This document shows, piece by piece, positions 21,625 through 44,341 of a DNA stretch of 64,000 nucleotides. A program made the translations under genes and the position numbers. The first letter of the stretch is position 1, and every line of letters starts with the position of its first letter. Location of the stretch: contig NZ_CP063779.1 in the NCBI RefSeq assembly GCF_021596945.1, positions 2,950,001-3,014,000 of the forward strand, read 5' to 3'. Source of the DNA: Mongoliitalea daihaiensis. GTDB taxonomy: Bacteria; Bacteroidota; Bacteroidia; Cytophagales; Cyclobacteriaceae. The notes beneath the pieces are model-generated. The model was not told the origin of the DNA, searched no databases, and saw nothing but the letters and a program-made list of their open reading frames with translations.

Positions 21625-21942
21625 AAGAAGGGTGGGTAGTTTTTTTGCTGGAATTCTTATGGGATTCAAAGGTAGGTATATGTTTCCACTAATCAAAAGG
21701 TAATTGCTCGCAGAAAGCACGGAAGCCGCAGAAAGAAAAGGAAATTGAACCTTTGAGGTCTTTCAGACCTCGAAGGTTTTTTAGAATATTTATTTTAGAG
21801 ACAATAATTCTATAGAAGATATCTTTGGGGTATTTCAAAACCCAAAAATCTAATTTTGGAACAAATTACTTTCGTTGAGTGAAAAAAGAGCATCATTCTT
21901 TTTATTTTATCTAGAAGATTTAGGTAGCTAAAAGGTTTTTTA
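21625..21942. other. Intergenic region between the K+ channel gene and pyrG
   Basis: About 320 bp without a convincing gene. It must hold the pyrG promoter. The only clear structure is the 31-bp palindrome at 21748-21778, annotated separately; the rest is AT-rich. Confidence 0.6.
21748..21778. repeat. 31-bp palindromic element
   Basis: Two 14-base arms, AACCTTTGAGGTCT and AGACCTCGAAGGTT, pair with a single G-T type mismatch around the loop TTC. A six-T run follows on the plus strand, which is terminator-like, but no plus-strand gene lies upstream. Short palindromes with an AGGTCT/AGACCT core are, as I recall, dispersed in many Bacteroidota genomes, so this may be a REP-like element. Confidence 0.6.
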
Positions 21943-22581
21943 TTATTCTGAACTTTTAACAAAAATTGATGCGATATATGCAGTAATTACACCGAATACT
22001 GATATGCCATAAGTCATAAGAAACATTGCTAAAATTCTCCCTAAGGTTGTAACTGGGTATTTATCTCCATAACCAACTGTAGTTATTGTAGTGTAGGACC
22101 ACCAAATTGCATCTTCTGCATTTGTTATATTACTTTCAACATCATTTTCAAGAACTAGTATTGCTATCGAGGAAAAAATTAAAACAAAAAATCCCAAAAT
22201 AATTACAGAAAAGACTGATCCTTTGGCAGTATCAGGAAATAAGTTTTTCAAGAAACTATTAAAAGTGTTGTATGCTTTTATTACGCGAATAAGTCTAATT
22301 AATCTGAACACGCGGCCATATCTAAGACTATCTAACATAGGAATGCTGGATATTAAATCTATCCAACCCCATTTAAGATATTTTAGCTTATTTTCTGCTG
22401 TTAATAGATTATAAAAAAATTCTGACAAAAATATTAAACAAATAAAGTAGTCAAAATAGCTTAAGATTTTAGATATTTCCTAATCAAGACTTATAAACGA
22501 ATCGACAACAAGTGCTATCAGAACATAAATTGAAAGTAATAAGATTAAAACATTTATAAGAGATAATTTTTTGTTATTCAT
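21943..22581 (-). pseudogene. Voltage-gated K+ channel with in-frame TAG after codon 33
   Basis: Read from ATG at 22581, the frame encodes a first membrane helix (NVLILLLSIYVLIALVV), meets TAG at 22482-22480 after 33 codons, and then continues open for another 178 codons to 21943. The downstream part holds helix S2, an arginine-rich S4-like voltage sensor (GRVFRLIRLIRVIKAY), the pore with selectivity filter TTVGYGD, and the last helix. The total of about 212 codons fits a small six-helix channel. A C-to-T change of a CAG codon would explain the stop. Reinitiation at TTG 22428 could still give a shortened channel lacking S1. The start overlaps the small upstream ORF. Confidence 0.8.
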
Positions 22582-22702
22582 TTGATACTACTTCTATTTT
22601 TTCTGTTAAATCAGAGTCTTCTTTAATGTTTATTTCATAAATCAAATAACTTAAAACCCCAGCAATTAATAAAGCTAAGAGACCTTTTAGTACGAAAATC
22701 AA
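22574..22702 (-). CDS. Putative 42-residue single-helix membrane protein
   Basis: A short open frame lying between the unknown membrane protein gene and the channel gene. It encodes one hydrophobic helix (LKGLLALLIAGVLSYLIYE) followed by an acidic tail with NIKEDSDLTEKIEVVSNE. The start is uncertain: TTG at 22702 is used here, with no ATG in frame. Its stop overlaps the channel's ATG by 8 bp (ATGAATAA), a typical coupling arrangement that supports it being translated. No family is recognised. Confidence 0.45.
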   Translation of the reverse strand: MIFVLKGLLALLIAGVLSYLIYEINIKEDSDLTEKIEVVSNE

Positions 22703-22722
22703 TTTTTCTTTTTTATTAGGTA

Positions 22723-23232
22723 TTATGGAAGCTTCTGAATATATTTTTTTTCTTTATGACCCTCAATTCTTTTACCTTCTGAATATCTCTTATCTTGTTT
22801 ATAAATGGGTACTTTCTCTATTCTGTAGAATGGGATTGTAGTTTTTAAAAGATTTTTTAAACCAAGGTAAAACCAATAAACAGCCGTAACTATAGATACT
22901 GGGTAAATTAATAAGGTTGCGAACGATCCAATCAAAACAAAAAAATTTGATAAAAACGAATTAGAAAAAAGTTCTGGTTGAAACCCTTTTGAAATTAATT
23001 GATTTCGATTTATTAAATGAATATTATCATCATTCGATGAATCTGAATCAATCTTAGATATGGTAGGATTTTGAATATCCCATATCTCTTGGTTATTGTT
23101 AACATTTCTAATTGGGATTGAATGATTATCTTTATATACTTTATTACTTACGACTCTTCCTCCGTCTCTACCTACCTGATTAACCGCAGACCTGATAAAT
23201 CCTTTAAATAGTTTGTTTAAAAAGCTAGACAT
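22723..23232 (-). CDS. Unknown protein with a C-terminal-half membrane segment
   Basis: A 169-residue protein, unrecognised. The N-terminus (MSSFLNKLFKGFIRSAVNQV, then GRDGGRVVSNKVY) could be an amphipathic helix. A polar asparagine- and serine-rich middle (residues ~45-80) follows, then a hydrophobic stretch around 94-130 that could span the membrane once or twice, and a basic C-terminus rich in lysine. ATG at 23232 is chosen over an upstream in-frame start. It is the first gene of a probable three-gene operon ending in the interrupted K+ channel. Confidence 0.65.
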   Translation of the reverse strand: MSSFLNKLFKGFIRSAVNQVGRDGGRVVSNKVYKDNHSIPIRNVNNNQEIWDIQNPTISKIDSDSSNDDNIHLINRNQLISKGFQPELFSNSFLSNFFVLIGSFATLLIYPVSIVTAVYWFYLGLKNLLKTTIPFYRIEKVPIYKQDKRYSEGKRIEGHKEKKYIQKLP

Positions 23233-23411
23233 CTTAATTGAATAATAGTGTGAAATAGTATTTAAAAAAAGGCTCAATATCGAAATTCATTTAACCCTCA
23301 CCTTTTTTTAAAAATAAAACTTATATCTTAATTATTGAGCTTTTGAATCGTTTTTTTTCTTTGATTTTTAATTTTAGGATTTCACGAGAAATATATTCCT
23401 TATTTTTTAAT

Positions 23412-23746
23412 ATGGAAACACTTTATACGTGCCCTTCATGTGCTTCTCCTTATGGTTATGAATCAGATGGAATTATTTCTTGTCATGAATGGTGTTTACT
23501 TGGAAGGAAGAGACAACAACTTTGAGTTCTACATTTCAAGTCAAAGATGCTAATGGGAATATGCTGGAAAATGGTGATTCGGTCGAAATAGTTAAAGATT
23601 TACCAGTCAAAGGAGCACCTAAGCCGATTAAAGCTGGGACAAAAGTTAAAAATATCCAATTGGTAGAAGGATATCTTAATATTGATTGTAAGATTACCGG
23701 ATTTAATTCAATGGCTCTTAAGTATGAGATTTTAAAAAAAGGTTAA
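23412..23746 (+). pseudogene. phnA: phnA (yjdM) zinc-ribbon protein gene, frameshifted
   Basis: The N-terminal zinc knuckle METLYTCPSCASPYGYESDG begins at 23412 in one frame, which ends at 23525. The typical PhnA C-terminal domain ([47 protein letters not shown]) is in the +1-shifted frame reading to 23746. Between them the second zinc knuckle expected as CPECxxEW is reduced to SCHEW, so about 12 bp appear lost and the frame changes around 23478-23520. PhnA-type proteins are about 110 residues and of unclear function despite the phosphonate name. The product is probably non-functional unless the sequence is in error. Confidence 0.85.
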
Positions 23747-23860
23747 ATTTTTTAATTAGATTTTCAGTATAAAATAAGTCTATTGGAAGGGTGGTTTTAT
23801 ACTTCCTGTCCGATGTTTAAAGAGTTTCAATATCGCTTTGCGTAGAATAAGTCTGGTATA

Positions 23861-23889
23861 TAAGGATTGATTTCTAGTCCTTATTTTTA
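23861..23889 (+). terminator. Weak terminator candidate after phnA
   Basis: A 6-bp stem TAAGGA / TCCTTA with an 11-base loop, followed on the plus strand by ATTTTTAC. It lies about 115 bp after the phnA stop and just before the end of the convergent HTH gene. The stem is short, so confidence is low. Confidence 0.3.
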
Positions 23890-24093
23890 CTCCTCCCTAA
23901 ACTCCAAGATATCCCCTGGTTGACAATCTAATACTTTGCAGATGGCTTCCAAGGTGCTGAACCGTATAGCTTTGGCCTTGCCAGTTTTTAAAATGGATAG
24001 GTTTGAGAGGGTGAGGTCCACTTTTTCGGAGAGTTCGTTAAGGGACATCTTTCGCTTGGCCATCATCACATCTAAATTTACAATTATGGGCAT
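23887..24093 (-). CDS. Small Xre/Cro-type HTH regulator
   Basis: A 68-residue protein that is almost entirely a helix-turn-helix domain: MMAKRKMSLNELSEKVDLT followed by LSNLSILKTGKAKAIRFSTL and AICKVLDCQPGDILEF. This is the compact YozG-like Xre type. It lies 3 bp downstream of the DUF2975 gene. DUF2975-HTH pairs are common in Firmicutes and Bacteroidota; the regulator presumably controls its own operon, which is an inference. Confidence 0.9.
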   Translation of the reverse strand: MPIIVNLDVMMAKRKMSLNELSEKVDLTLSNLSILKTGKAKAIRFSTLEAICKVLDCQPGDILEFREE

Positions 24094-24708: not shown

Positions 24709-25028
24709 TAAAAATGTACTGTAAAAAAGTAAAAATTTTGCTCAATGGTAGATGGCTGGGTTAGTGAATTGGTTGATTGAGTTGAATAAGTTATTAGTGG
24801 AAGAAGACTTCTTTTTCTAGCTATGAGTCTCAATTATGAAAAGAAAAAACACCTGCATTTAGGATTTATAATTTTATAATGAATTAAAATATTATTTTCT
24901 CCCGAAAATTTACATATTTATGTATGTTTGAATAAAATAATTTATAAGCAAGATCATTAATTATTGAGGTTTAGAATCTTAGTTATTTAAAAAGCTATTC
25001 TTGTTTGTTTTCTAGATTTTAAAAAATC
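24709..25028. other. AT-rich intergenic region
   Basis: About 320 bp with no convincing open frame, RNA gene or repeat. It must contain the promoter of the DUF2975-HTH operon on the left side and the 3' end of the nuclease-like gene on the right. Confidence 0.5.
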
Positions 25029-26468
25029 TTAAAAAGGTAATTCACCATCGTCTGTAAAAGTTCTATTATTCATAATTATACTTTTCTTCAATTCTCTTTT
25101 AACTTCTTGTTGCATTTCCTTCGGAAGATAGGTATTTCGGAAATTAGTCTCCATCATAATCATGCTTTCTTCATAAGTCCATTTTTTTATAATTGGGCCA
25201 TAAAAATATAAATCAAAAGTTTGTTTTTGAATCGATTCAAGTAGGTCTGAAATCAATAATGCACAAGATAAGGGGTATTTAATTATTTGTAATTCAGAGA
25301 ATCTAATTACTCCCCAGTTATTTTCTAAAAAGGCATTATTTCTAAACCCATCAAGTGATCGGTCATGATGAATTGGTTTGCCAGGTGTAAAAGAATATGG
25401 TTCATCGATTTCAATGTCTAAATGAAAACCAGTTTTATTACACACTATTGTAAAATCAGGTTCAAAAGATTTGTTATTTAAAGTTATAGATAAGTCAATT
25501 AGGACTTTGAAATCCTTTTCTAAGAGATATTTTAAAAAAAATAATTCTGTCTTGCCTCTTGAAAGGTTTTCAGTTTTTTTCAAATAATTATTTTGAGATT
25601 TAGTGAGTTTTTTGAACAAATTTTTACGAACTAAAGGTCTGAACAAGTTAATTTTATTTTTGAAGCTTTCAATTTCTATTTTATAGTTGTTTTCTAGTTC
25701 TGAATTCTTGTTTAAAATCATCAACTTTTTTCCCTCATAGTCGGAGGAAAGTTTCTGGTATTCTTCATCCGTAAGTTTTATTTCATCATATTGTATATAT
25801 TTATAGAATCCTGAAGTAACTAAAGAAACTAACCATATAAAAGCAATTATTAATAGACCTAGCCCTATTGGATTTGTGTTTTCTGAATAATTAATTACGA
25901 ACAAGAATAAATTAACTAAAAATAAAACAATTATTTTCAGTTTGTTACCATTCCATTTTAATATTTGAGACTTAATAAGCTTTGTTTTTTTGGGTGGAAT
26001 GGGAAAAGGTAAAAGCTTCAATTCAGGTTTTGTGATTTTGAAATTAGAAACAATTTCTTCTTCAGGTATAATAATACTTGATAAGTTGACCAAACTCTCA
26101 TTAAGTAAAATTTCAGGATAAATTTTATTTTTATCATTAATTGATAAATGGGTTGATTCAACGACTAAGTAACATATAAAGCTATAATCCTCGAAGTTTA
26201 AACCTTCATTTATTTCAGAAAAAAGTTCATTAAAAGTTTCATGATTATTTACAATTTCAGCTGTAAAGTTAACATTGAAATTTAACAATAGTTTCGGGTT
26301 AAAATCTTTAAACTTTAAAATAAACCGTAGGGCATGATTATAGGGATTAGAAAGATAAAAGTTTCCTAAAGAATCCTTTTTTAATGGTAAACTATATTCA
26401 GCATTTGATTTTAAATCTGATATATCAAGGCCTATCGCATCAAAAAGGTCATAAATATCAATATTCAT
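25029..26468 (-). CDS. Membrane protein with C-terminal PD-(D/E)XK-like domain
   Basis: A 479-residue protein of unknown role. Residues 1-165 are soluble and unrecognised. Two adjacent hydrophobic helices sit around 178-222 (KIIVLFLVNLFLFVINYSE; GLGLLIIAFIWLVSLVTSGF), followed by a charged coiled-coil-like stretch (~230-295) and a soluble C-terminal domain. That domain has a conserved acidic layout: SRGKTELFF, then FEPDFTIV, then DIEIDEPYSF, IHHDRSLDGFR and WGVIRFSELQ. The PDF...IEID pattern resembles a restriction-endonuclease-like fold, although the usual lysine after ExD is not evident. Low GC and lone position suggest horizontal acquisition. Confidence 0.6.
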   Translation of the reverse strand: MNIDIYDLFDAIGLDISDLKSNAEYSLPLKKDSLGNFYLSNPYNHALRFILKFKDFNPKLLLNFNVNFTAEIVNNHETFNELFSEINEGLNFEDYSFICYLVVESTHLSINDKNKIYPEILLNESLVNLSSIIIPEEEIVSNFKITKPELKLLPFPIPPKKTKLIKSQILKWNGNKLKIIVLFLVNLFLFVINYSENTNPIGLGLLIIAFIWLVSLVTSGFYKYIQYDEIKLTDEEYQKLSSDYEGKKLMILNKNSELENNYKIEIESFKNKINLFRPLVRKNLFKKLTKSQNNYLKKTENLSRGKTELFFLKYLLEKDFKVLIDLSITLNNKSFEPDFTIVCNKTGFHLDIEIDEPYSFTPGKPIHHDRSLDGFRNNAFLENNWGVIRFSELQIIKYPLSCALLISDLLESIQKQTFDLYFYGPIIKKWTYEESMIMMETNFRNTYLPKEMQQEVKRELKKSIIMNNRTFTDDGELPF

Positions 26469-26568
26469 ATATTTTATAAATTATGTATATTTTTAAATAT
26501 TTTTAAGAGCTATATAACTATAAATATACCTTAAATATTTTATATTGATTTAAACGTAAACATATATT

Positions 26569-27045
26569 TTATTTAAATTTTTGATTCAACCCTTCATCAA
26601 ACCCAAAAGCTCTTGAAGAAACCACGGAAATCAACTTTGCATCAGGGTGAGATGGGTTGATAAGGTAATTGAATTCCTCAGGGATGATGCTAGATGGGAC
26701 CCGTAATACCGCGCTTGCTTGACTTTGGATAAAATCATCTCCAATAAGTTGGGTTAGTAATTGGGGTGGCTTGGCATCCCAATCATAGGGGAGGTACTCC
26801 GGTGAAAGTGTACTGATTACAACTGAATCAGGGATTTCTATGGTAACTAACACACGGTCTTTTGGGAAATCAGTTGCTAAATCCATATGCACAGCTACTT
26901 CCAAAGATGCAAGCGCTCTGGACTCTGAAGTGTACACCATAAAAGTATTCAGACTGTTCCAGCGGAAACCTTTGGATTTGGATGCGCCAATACCTGTAAG
27001 GGTGTCAGGGAGATATTTTCTCCGCTCTATCCTAAATACCAACAT
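26569..27045 (-). CDS. RES domain toxin
   Basis: A 158-residue RES-family toxin. Characterised RES toxins degrade or phosphorolyse NAD+, and the fold resembles ADP-ribosyltransferases. The family's Arg-Glu-Ser positions can be matched to VFRIERRKY at the N-terminus, RWNSLNTFMVYTSESRALASLEV near residue 35, and the late SSIIPEEFNYLINPSHP segment. ATG at 27045 shares one base with the antitoxin stop (TGATG), indicating coupling; an upstream in-frame extension is ignored. The pair is complete and has no visible lesion. Confidence 0.88.
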   Translation of the reverse strand: MLVFRIERRKYLPDTLTGIGASKSKGFRWNSLNTFMVYTSESRALASLEVAVHMDLATDFPKDRVLVTIEIPDSVVISTLSPEYLPYDWDAKPPQLLTQLIGDDFIQSQASAVLRVPSSIIPEEFNYLINPSHPDAKLISVVSSRAFGFDEGLNQKFK

Positions 27046-27599: not shown

Positions 27600-27920
27600 T
27601 TACTTTTCGTAAAAGACCTTTCCAACCCTTTCAATATGATCTAGAAAATCAGGATTCTTCAAGTGCGAAAAAATTGAAATATCACATGTGTAGGGAAGAA
27701 ATAATTCATCAAGGTCTTCTTCAATAGCGAAAAGTGTATCTAATGTAACATCAGAACCGATCAACGTTAGGTTAATATCAGAACCAGTTCTATAATTACC
27801 CTTGGCTCTAGAGCCATAAACTATCACTTTTTCTACTTCGGGATATTTTCCAAACACAGAATTAATCTTTTCCAGTGTTGTATGGGAGAGGCCAAATTTT
27901 TCAAGCTCTTTAGTTTTCAT
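27600..27920 (-). CDS. mntA: MNT nucleotidyltransferase antitoxin (HEPN/MNT pair), second catalytic Asp replaced by Asn
   Basis: A 106-residue minimal nucleotidyltransferase. MNT antitoxins AMPylate a tyrosine of their HEPN toxin. The catalytic motif should be GSx10DxD; here it reads GSRAKGNYRTGSDIN, so the first aspartate is kept and the second is asparagine (codon AAC where GAC is expected). That change would be expected to weaken metal binding and catalysis. The rest (YPEVEKVIVYG, and FSHLKNPDFLDHIERVGKVFYE) looks intact and full length. Its ATG would overlap the repaired HEPN frame by 11 bp, the classical arrangement. Confidence 0.88.
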   Translation of the reverse strand: MKTKELEKFGLSHTTLEKINSVFGKYPEVEKVIVYGSRAKGNYRTGSDINLTLIGSDVTLDTLFAIEEDLDELFLPYTCDISIFSHLKNPDFLDHIERVGKVFYEK

Positions 27921-28372
27921 GGTTTAAGGTGTCCATTTTCGAATTAAACGCTTGAAATTCCTGAATATAATCTTCGATGATCTTAAAAAAAAATAGCATC
28001 AGCTGTTTCCTCATTGTAGGTATGAGAAGTCTTGTTTCGACTTTTGATCATATCCATCCAAATGTTTCCATTGGTAATCAATCCTGCTGAAAAGGCAGCT
28101 CTTTTAGCATCTTTGGAACCATAAATCTCAATATTTCCAGCAGCCGCTAGGAAGTCTTTCATGACATTCCAAGCGAGCTCATGAGTATATTCAAAACGTT
28201 GGATAAGTCCTTCTTTTAAAATATCATTCAAAAAAGAATCTTCCGCAATACTTCCGTCTTTGCCGGTAGGATAGTCTTCTTTTATCCTCGAAACGGCTTC
28301 ATCCAGTTTAGCTAAAGCCTTTTTATAATTACTAAACCGTTGTTCCCAACGAATGTCTTTTGATTCCATCAT
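27910..28372 (-). pseudogene. hepT: HEPN toxin of the HEPN/MNT pair, frameshifted in a T9 tract
   Basis: The zero frame encodes 129 residues (28372-27983) and stops right after a run of nine T. The protein shows the HEPN motif Rx4HxY as RNKTSHTY, where the tyrosine is the known AMPylation target in related pairs. Removing one T restores a C-terminal helix reading AIFFKIIEDYIQEFQAFNSK up to a stop at 27910, overlapping the MNT ATG. That helix is present in normal HI0074/HepT-like proteins of about 140-150 residues. The lesion may be real decay, slippage-prone expression or a sequencing error. Confidence 0.8.
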
Positions 28373-28490
28373 ATGTTTATTGAATCATGACAAGTTAAAG
28401 ATTTCCCCCCCATCTTCCCAACAATAATTTCTTATAAACGAAACTTACTGTCGATTGACAATCTCTATTTTTTTGAACGATTCACAAATA

Positions 28491-43528: not shown

Positions 43529-44341
43529 ATGCAAAAAATAACCGAGCAAAGTTCGCTTTATAACAACTTGGAGCAGATGAGTTTGAAAGAACTCCTAGCA
43601 ACCATCAATCAAGAGGATCAAAAAGTAGCGATAGCAGTAAAAGCTGTTATTTCTCCAATAGAGCAATTTATGGAAGCTTTTCTTCCTAGGTTTGAGAAAG
43701 GTGGGCGCTTAATTTACATAGGTGCGGGTACAAGTGGAAGGCTTGGGATTTTGGATGCCTCTGAGATCCCACCCACATATGGAATGCCTGCTGACCGTGT
43801 AGTTGGAATCATTGCAGGAGGAGCACAGGCTATTCAATCATCTGTTGAAAATGCAGAAGATGATGTAGATGCTGCTTGGAAGGCTTTAGAAGCCATAAGT
43901 ATTCAGGAAATTGATACAGTGATTGGAATTGCAGCGTCAGGATATACCCCGTTTGTTGTTGGGGGAGTTCAAAAAGCTAGGGAGTTTGGTTGCCTTACAG
44001 CCTGTATTACCAATAATCCCGATACACCTCTAGCCGAGGCGGTAGAATTCCCTATAGAGATCATTGTTGGCCCTGAAGTTGTCACGGGAAGTACACGAAT
44101 GAAAAGCGGCACAGCTCAAAAATTGGTATTGAATATGATCAGTACGAGTTTGATGATCAAAATTGGAAGAGTCAAAGACAACAAAATGGTCCATATGAAA
44201 CTTGCTAATCAAAAGCTTTTTCGTAGAGGGGTTGATATTTTGGTGAATGAATTGCAAATTACACCACTAGAAGCAGCCCATTTATTGAAGTTATATGGGT
44301 CTGTCGACAATTCATTGAAGAATTTTGTCAAATCTGTTTAA
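43529..44341 (+). CDS. murQ: N-acetylmuramic acid 6-phosphate etherase
   Basis: MurQ cleaves the lactyl ether of MurNAc-6-phosphate, giving GlcNAc-6-phosphate and D-lactate in the cytoplasm. The 270-residue SIS-domain protein shows YIGAGTSGRLGILDASEIPPTYG near residue 55, then ENAEDDVDAAW, GIAASGYTPFV, and VVTGSTRMKSGTAQK near residue 185. It is slightly shorter than the ~300-residue E. coli enzyme because its C-terminal tail is short. It is divergent from the SusC gene across a 215-bp gap and is followed by a DeoR-type regulator gene after 16 bp. Confidence 0.94.
   Translation: MQKITEQSSLYNNLEQMSLKELLATINQEDQKVAIAVKAVISPIEQFMEAFLPRFEKGGRLIYIGAGTSGRLGILDASEIPPTYGMPADRVVGIIAGGAQAIQSSVENAEDDVDAAWKALEAISIQEIDTVIGIAASGYTPFVVGGVQKAREFGCLTACITNNPDTPLAEAVEFPIEIIVGPEVVTGSTRMKSGTAQKLVLNMISTSLMIKIGRVKDNKMVHMKLANQKLFRRGVDILVNELQITPLEAAHLLKLYGSVDNSLKNFVKSV

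Follow-up and report, generated by a model that had tools for sequence, protein, structure and literature searches.

A predicted K+ channel gene with an in-frame TAG, probably a young pseudogene, in a low-GC segment of Mongoliitalea daihaiensis

Known channels and the window gene

Six-helix voltage-gated-type K+ channels of bacteria and archaea (the Ion_trans family, with PDB entry 1orq, a 'potassium channel' that we take to be KvAP) are the closest described systems to the gene analysed here, which lies in a window of 64,000 nucleotides from Mongoliitalea daihaiensis (contig NZ_CP063779.1, positions 2,950,001 to 3,014,000). The window channel shares with them the helices S1 to S6, the S4 arginines, the TVGYGD motif and the lack of a large C-terminal domain, whereas it differs from them in carrying an in-frame stop codon in the loop between S1 and S2. 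With the NCBIfam model K_channel_Meth it scores 49 bits, short of the cut-off of 300. Over nearly the whole of its read-through frame, the window channel aligns with an unnamed, Bacteroidota-centred clade of K+ channels, mostly at 45–56% identity, whose members come from Runella, Flavobacterium, Pedobacter, Prevotella and others. A second comparison is with decaying acquired genes, the pseudogenes of accessory islands. The segment around the channel gene resembles these in its low GC content, its absence from the same-genus genome G001 and its several damaged neighbours, but differs in that each gene bears a single lesion. A literature search at the level of abstracts returned no publication bearing on the window channel gene.

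Our results support a model, to which we give a probability of about 0.8, in which the channel is a young pseudogene in a small, acquired and decaying segment. The low-GC segment with its six-helix K+ channel gene was probably gained by horizontal transfer, and one nonsense change would have fallen in the variable S1–S2 loop. Translation would yield a peptide of 33 residues that contains S1 alone. Loss of the channel is probably tolerated; the genome has two other K+-channel-type genes (with the PF07885 pore domain), and neighbours in the segment are breaking too. Most likely this is an ordinary recently dead gene and not a new kind of channel, and no new mechanism is required. A pseudogene of this sort carries little weight in itself, and a clean stop in a well-preserved gene is to be judged beside its neighbours.

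The channel frame, its stop codon and the decoding of TAG

21943..22581, minus strand: predicted K+ channel gene (S1–S6, TVGYGD) with one TAG, probable pseudogene (from the frame, Pfam and homologues)
22480..22482, minus strand: in-frame TAG in the S1–S2 loop, codon 34 (from the frame and the homologue column)
22426..22428, minus strand: TTG inside S2, first in-frame start codon (of ATG, GTG and TTG) after the TAG, a possible but unsupported restart

The minus-strand frame runs from ATG 22581 to a terminal TAA at 21945-21943 and is interrupted by a single in-frame TAG, at 22482-22480, so that no continuous open frame leads from S1 to S6. With helices numbered S1 to S6 as is customary for such channels, the translation has a hydrophobic S1 before the TAG, and the S4 arginines and TVGYGD selectivity filter after it. 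An earlier note, made from the letters alone, had described these same elements (start codon, S1, stop, open channel, S4 arginines and filter), and all of them, coordinates included, were borne out. Between the TAG and the terminal TAA lie 178 stop-free codons, a run with a chance of about 3e-7 at this composition, and the Pfam Ion_trans match of the read-through translation (4.4e-21, residues 8–209, 75.6 bits against a cut-off of 25) covers both sides of the TAG; for these two reasons the frame is not a product of chance. Ion_trans_2 matches the same translation over residues 131–208 (5.2e-17, 61.9 bits against a cut-off of 22.5).

Channel homologues were sought in 98 relatives, in 390 genomes of the family (E limit 1e-25) and in a named genome collection. 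We examined 97 loci and set three aside (L009–L011; 31–33% identity, S1 present, no stop). Of the remaining 94, 14 came from the relatives and family genomes, being a part of all matches there, and 80 from the named collection, where they were retrieved by peptide patterns taken from the window's own channel. Leaving out three damaged loci (L120, L127 and L128) and merging four duplicates gave 87 distinct rows. A stop at the TAG column occurs in none of the 94 loci (L128 being judged from its N-terminal piece), and the disruption is thus one that the relatives lack, as in a pseudogene. No damage was seen in 90 of the 94, the other four being damaged elsewhere or otherwise: L120 and L128 carry frameshifts, a stop falls within S1 in L127, and L100, discussed below, is the only locus without S1. 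No relative above about 56% protein identity was found in the genomes searched, so the age and direction of the lesion cannot be checked.

Judging from the alignment, the TAG column is a variable position of the S1–S2 loop. Its residues among the 87 distinct homologues are P (29), K (15), S (12), D, E and A (8 each) and seven others once each, glutamine included, making 13 kinds in all. The earlier note had explained the stop by a change from CAG. That ancestor is possible and is not favoured, since glutamine stands in only one of the 87 homologues and TAG can arise by one base change from codons for K, E, S and Q alike.

The breadth of residues accepted at this column would suit some degree of readthrough at the TAG that yields the full-length channel, as the earlier note had also suggested. 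Against this, RF1 is encoded in the genome (above its curated cut-off), TAG is an ordinary stop that terminates 5 of 43 window ORFs, and the column is free of stops in all homologues. A CTA anticodon is present in none of the 41 tRNA genes read by ARAGORN (out of 42 RF00005 matches), a list that is incomplete in that it contains neither Ile-GAT nor Ala-TGC. Nor could readthrough cure the lesions of the neighbouring genes. With RF1 present and no suppressor tRNA in this incomplete list, we found no sign that TAG is reassigned or suppressed, and we regard readthrough as the least probable account of the stop. The 42nd tRNA-like gene (L179; G000:C1:3422564-3422644) scores 50.6 bits with RF00005 but was passed over by ARAGORN; the anticodon loop seems enlarged, and no CTA was seen in it by eye.

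Preservation past the stop and a possible restart

The remainder of the gene is conserved. Among 67 homologues with at least 45% identity, 45 positions after the stop are conserved in at least 95%, and the window channel departs at none of them; in a leave-one-out comparison, 34 of the 67 homologues likewise show none. At a looser level of 90% conservation, the window channel departs at 3 of 54 positions. Because 80 of the loci had been found by patterns from the window channel, which partly biases the set of sites, the test was repeated with the 14 pattern-free homologues, against which there is one departure (T to N, position 154) at 41 invariant sites. Applying the rule of three, we bound the neutral divergence that has followed the lesion at about 3% from the conserved sites and about 10% from the lack of a second stop. 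Such preservation fits either a young lesion or a remainder still used under continued selection. One lesion in an otherwise well-preserved sequence is consistent with the recent event that the earlier note had put forward, and that note was right in seeing no further damage in the channel gene itself; the claim does not extend to the neighbouring genes, which are damaged.

Continued use could come about by restarting translation at TTG 22428, which lies in frame with no stop after it and would yield a functional channel without S1 and half of S2. K+ channel pore modules can function without a voltage sensor. One homologue, L100, also starts at the S1–S2 loop. The abstract opening of PMC12332018 is consistent with pore modules that work in this way. 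However, the putative restart site lies 51 bases past the stop, within S2, the next in-frame start after it being ATG 22338 at the end of S3 (residue 82), and 93 of the 94 homologous loci retain S1. The earlier note had proposed such a reinitiated, S1-less channel, and this distribution of S1 speaks against it; we consider the restart very doubtful. Even less credible is a four-helix channel from this TTG, perhaps together with the S1 peptide, that is maintained by continued selection. If a truncated channel did work, it would offer a natural test of the minimal voltage sensor for a K+ channel.

L100 does not serve as a natural S1-less homologue. It (L100:1608-1868) comes from a Cyclobacteriaceae metagenome bin in which unrelated DNA stands in place of the channel S1, and its upstream DNA resembles, by eye, opposite-strand coding DNA of another gene. 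The locus is more likely broken, rearranged or chimeric. It is the sole candidate for a homologue that begins after the stop, which the earlier note had named as a ground for refuting its reading, and there is no convincing case. We return to the young pseudogene as the preferred reading, under which the channel's function would have been lost.

The low-GC segment, its broken genes and the control genes

21907..23890: extra segment of 1,984 bp, GC 0.283; the same-genus genome G001 has 2 bp there
22574..22720, minus strand: open stretch with a TM helix, in another frame, after the A8 run (tail match 4.2 bits, weak)
22723..23277, minus strand: ORF1, encoding a small membrane protein (KGF-RSAVNQVGRDGGRVVSN family; ATG 23232 is the likely start; profile match 1–143 of 179)
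23412..23519, plus strand: phnA/yjdM, the half with the zinc ribbon, in a frame of its own (PF08274, weak match, E 0.054)
23489..23746, plus strand: yjdM, its PhnA domain, in the adjacent frame (PF03831, 1.1e-27; TIGR00686, 28–108 of 109)

The earlier note had overlooked that several genes of a low-GC accessory block are damaged, the channel among them. Segment 21907-23890 holds three genes, namely the channel, ORF1 and phnA/yjdM, and its GC content is 0.283, the window as a whole having 0.391 and the adjoining CTP synthase-like ORF, which we take to be pyrG, 0.409. Neither the channel nor phnA/yjdM was found in G001, the one genome of the genus in the comparison, and the segment was presumably gained here rather than lost in G001. 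The phnA/yjdM gene (23412-23746, plus strand) is frameshifted at its zinc ribbon, judging from its two domain matches, and there is no homopolymer at the lesion site. ORF1 has no C-terminal TM helix, its match to an 11-member family profile ends at position 143 of 179, and it stops shortly after an A8 run (22744-22751). The stretch at 22574-22720, which terminates within the start of the channel gene (ATGAATAA), is probably the displaced ORF1 tail, and ORF1 is probably frameshifted and cut at the A8 run. About 5 kb from the segment, a gene for a HepT-like (NTase substrate-binding) protein (27913-28384, minus strand) carries a frameshift at a T9 run close to the C-terminus, and its copy in G001 is open. 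Each of these genes has a single lesion, so decay would appear to be at an early stage.

Homopolymer runs are typical places of read error. The position of the ORF1 and HepT-like lesions at such runs, together with the good preservation of the damaged genes otherwise, would fit a sequencing or assembly error at the TAG as well, in which case the channel gene would be intact in the living cell. We consider this unlikely. The channel lesion is a stop of the substitution type and the phnA lesion lies away from homopolymers, and a uniform error would strike shared core genes too.

As a control, we took the 43 ORFs of the window that reach 150 aa, excluding the channel remnant and ORF1; these had been chosen as long open frames. 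A G001 counterpart was found for 37 of them (counting ORF 43529-44341, whose match covers just its final 40 residues), and internal damage is absent from all of these. In G001, stops relative to the control ORFs are confined to the first 37 residues of the mechanical ORFs, whose true starts we place further downstream. In the reverse test, among 53 G001 ORFs with a syntenic match (antisense included), only the HepT-like gene is frameshifted in the window; internal stops belonged to antisense frames or lay near mechanical starts in the three cases inspected. Lesions affect three of the eight genes of the accessory block firmly, or four with ORF1, versus none of the 34 window genes outside it that have a G001 counterpart (post hoc Fisher p 0.005 with three lesions and 0.0006 with four). 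This clustering speaks for decay of dispensable DNA over uniform sequencing error, and we infer that the TAG lesion is probably real, a local error being less likely.

Several further observations concern the surroundings of the segment. A second block absent from G001, at 24847-26585 of the window, has a GC content of 0.247, and its 479-aa ORF has no Pfam match. Promoter-like sites number 12 against 12.5 expected, and no terminator was found. A plasmid origin was considered and dropped, as a plasmid collection gave no match for the channel (tblastn, E limit 1e-20) or for an ORF1-family N-terminus.

The ORF1 family, with its striking N-terminal KGF motif, is rare and was found in 4 of 395 sampled genomes. 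The family is also present in 12 viral-contig loci (L196–L207), which are closer to the window ORF1 than the distant relatives L165, L166 and L192; in two of the viral loci (L206 and L207), other sequence precedes the ORF1-family protein in the same frame. A K+ channel gene stands directly beside L166 and L192, and not beside L165. The idea of a constant pairing between ORF1 and K+ channels was abandoned, a motif scan having found a channel in none of the 12 viral-contig loci. In L165 and L166, two of the three distant relatives, the frame is broken at long runs of A, for which phase variation, programmed shifting or decay could be responsible.
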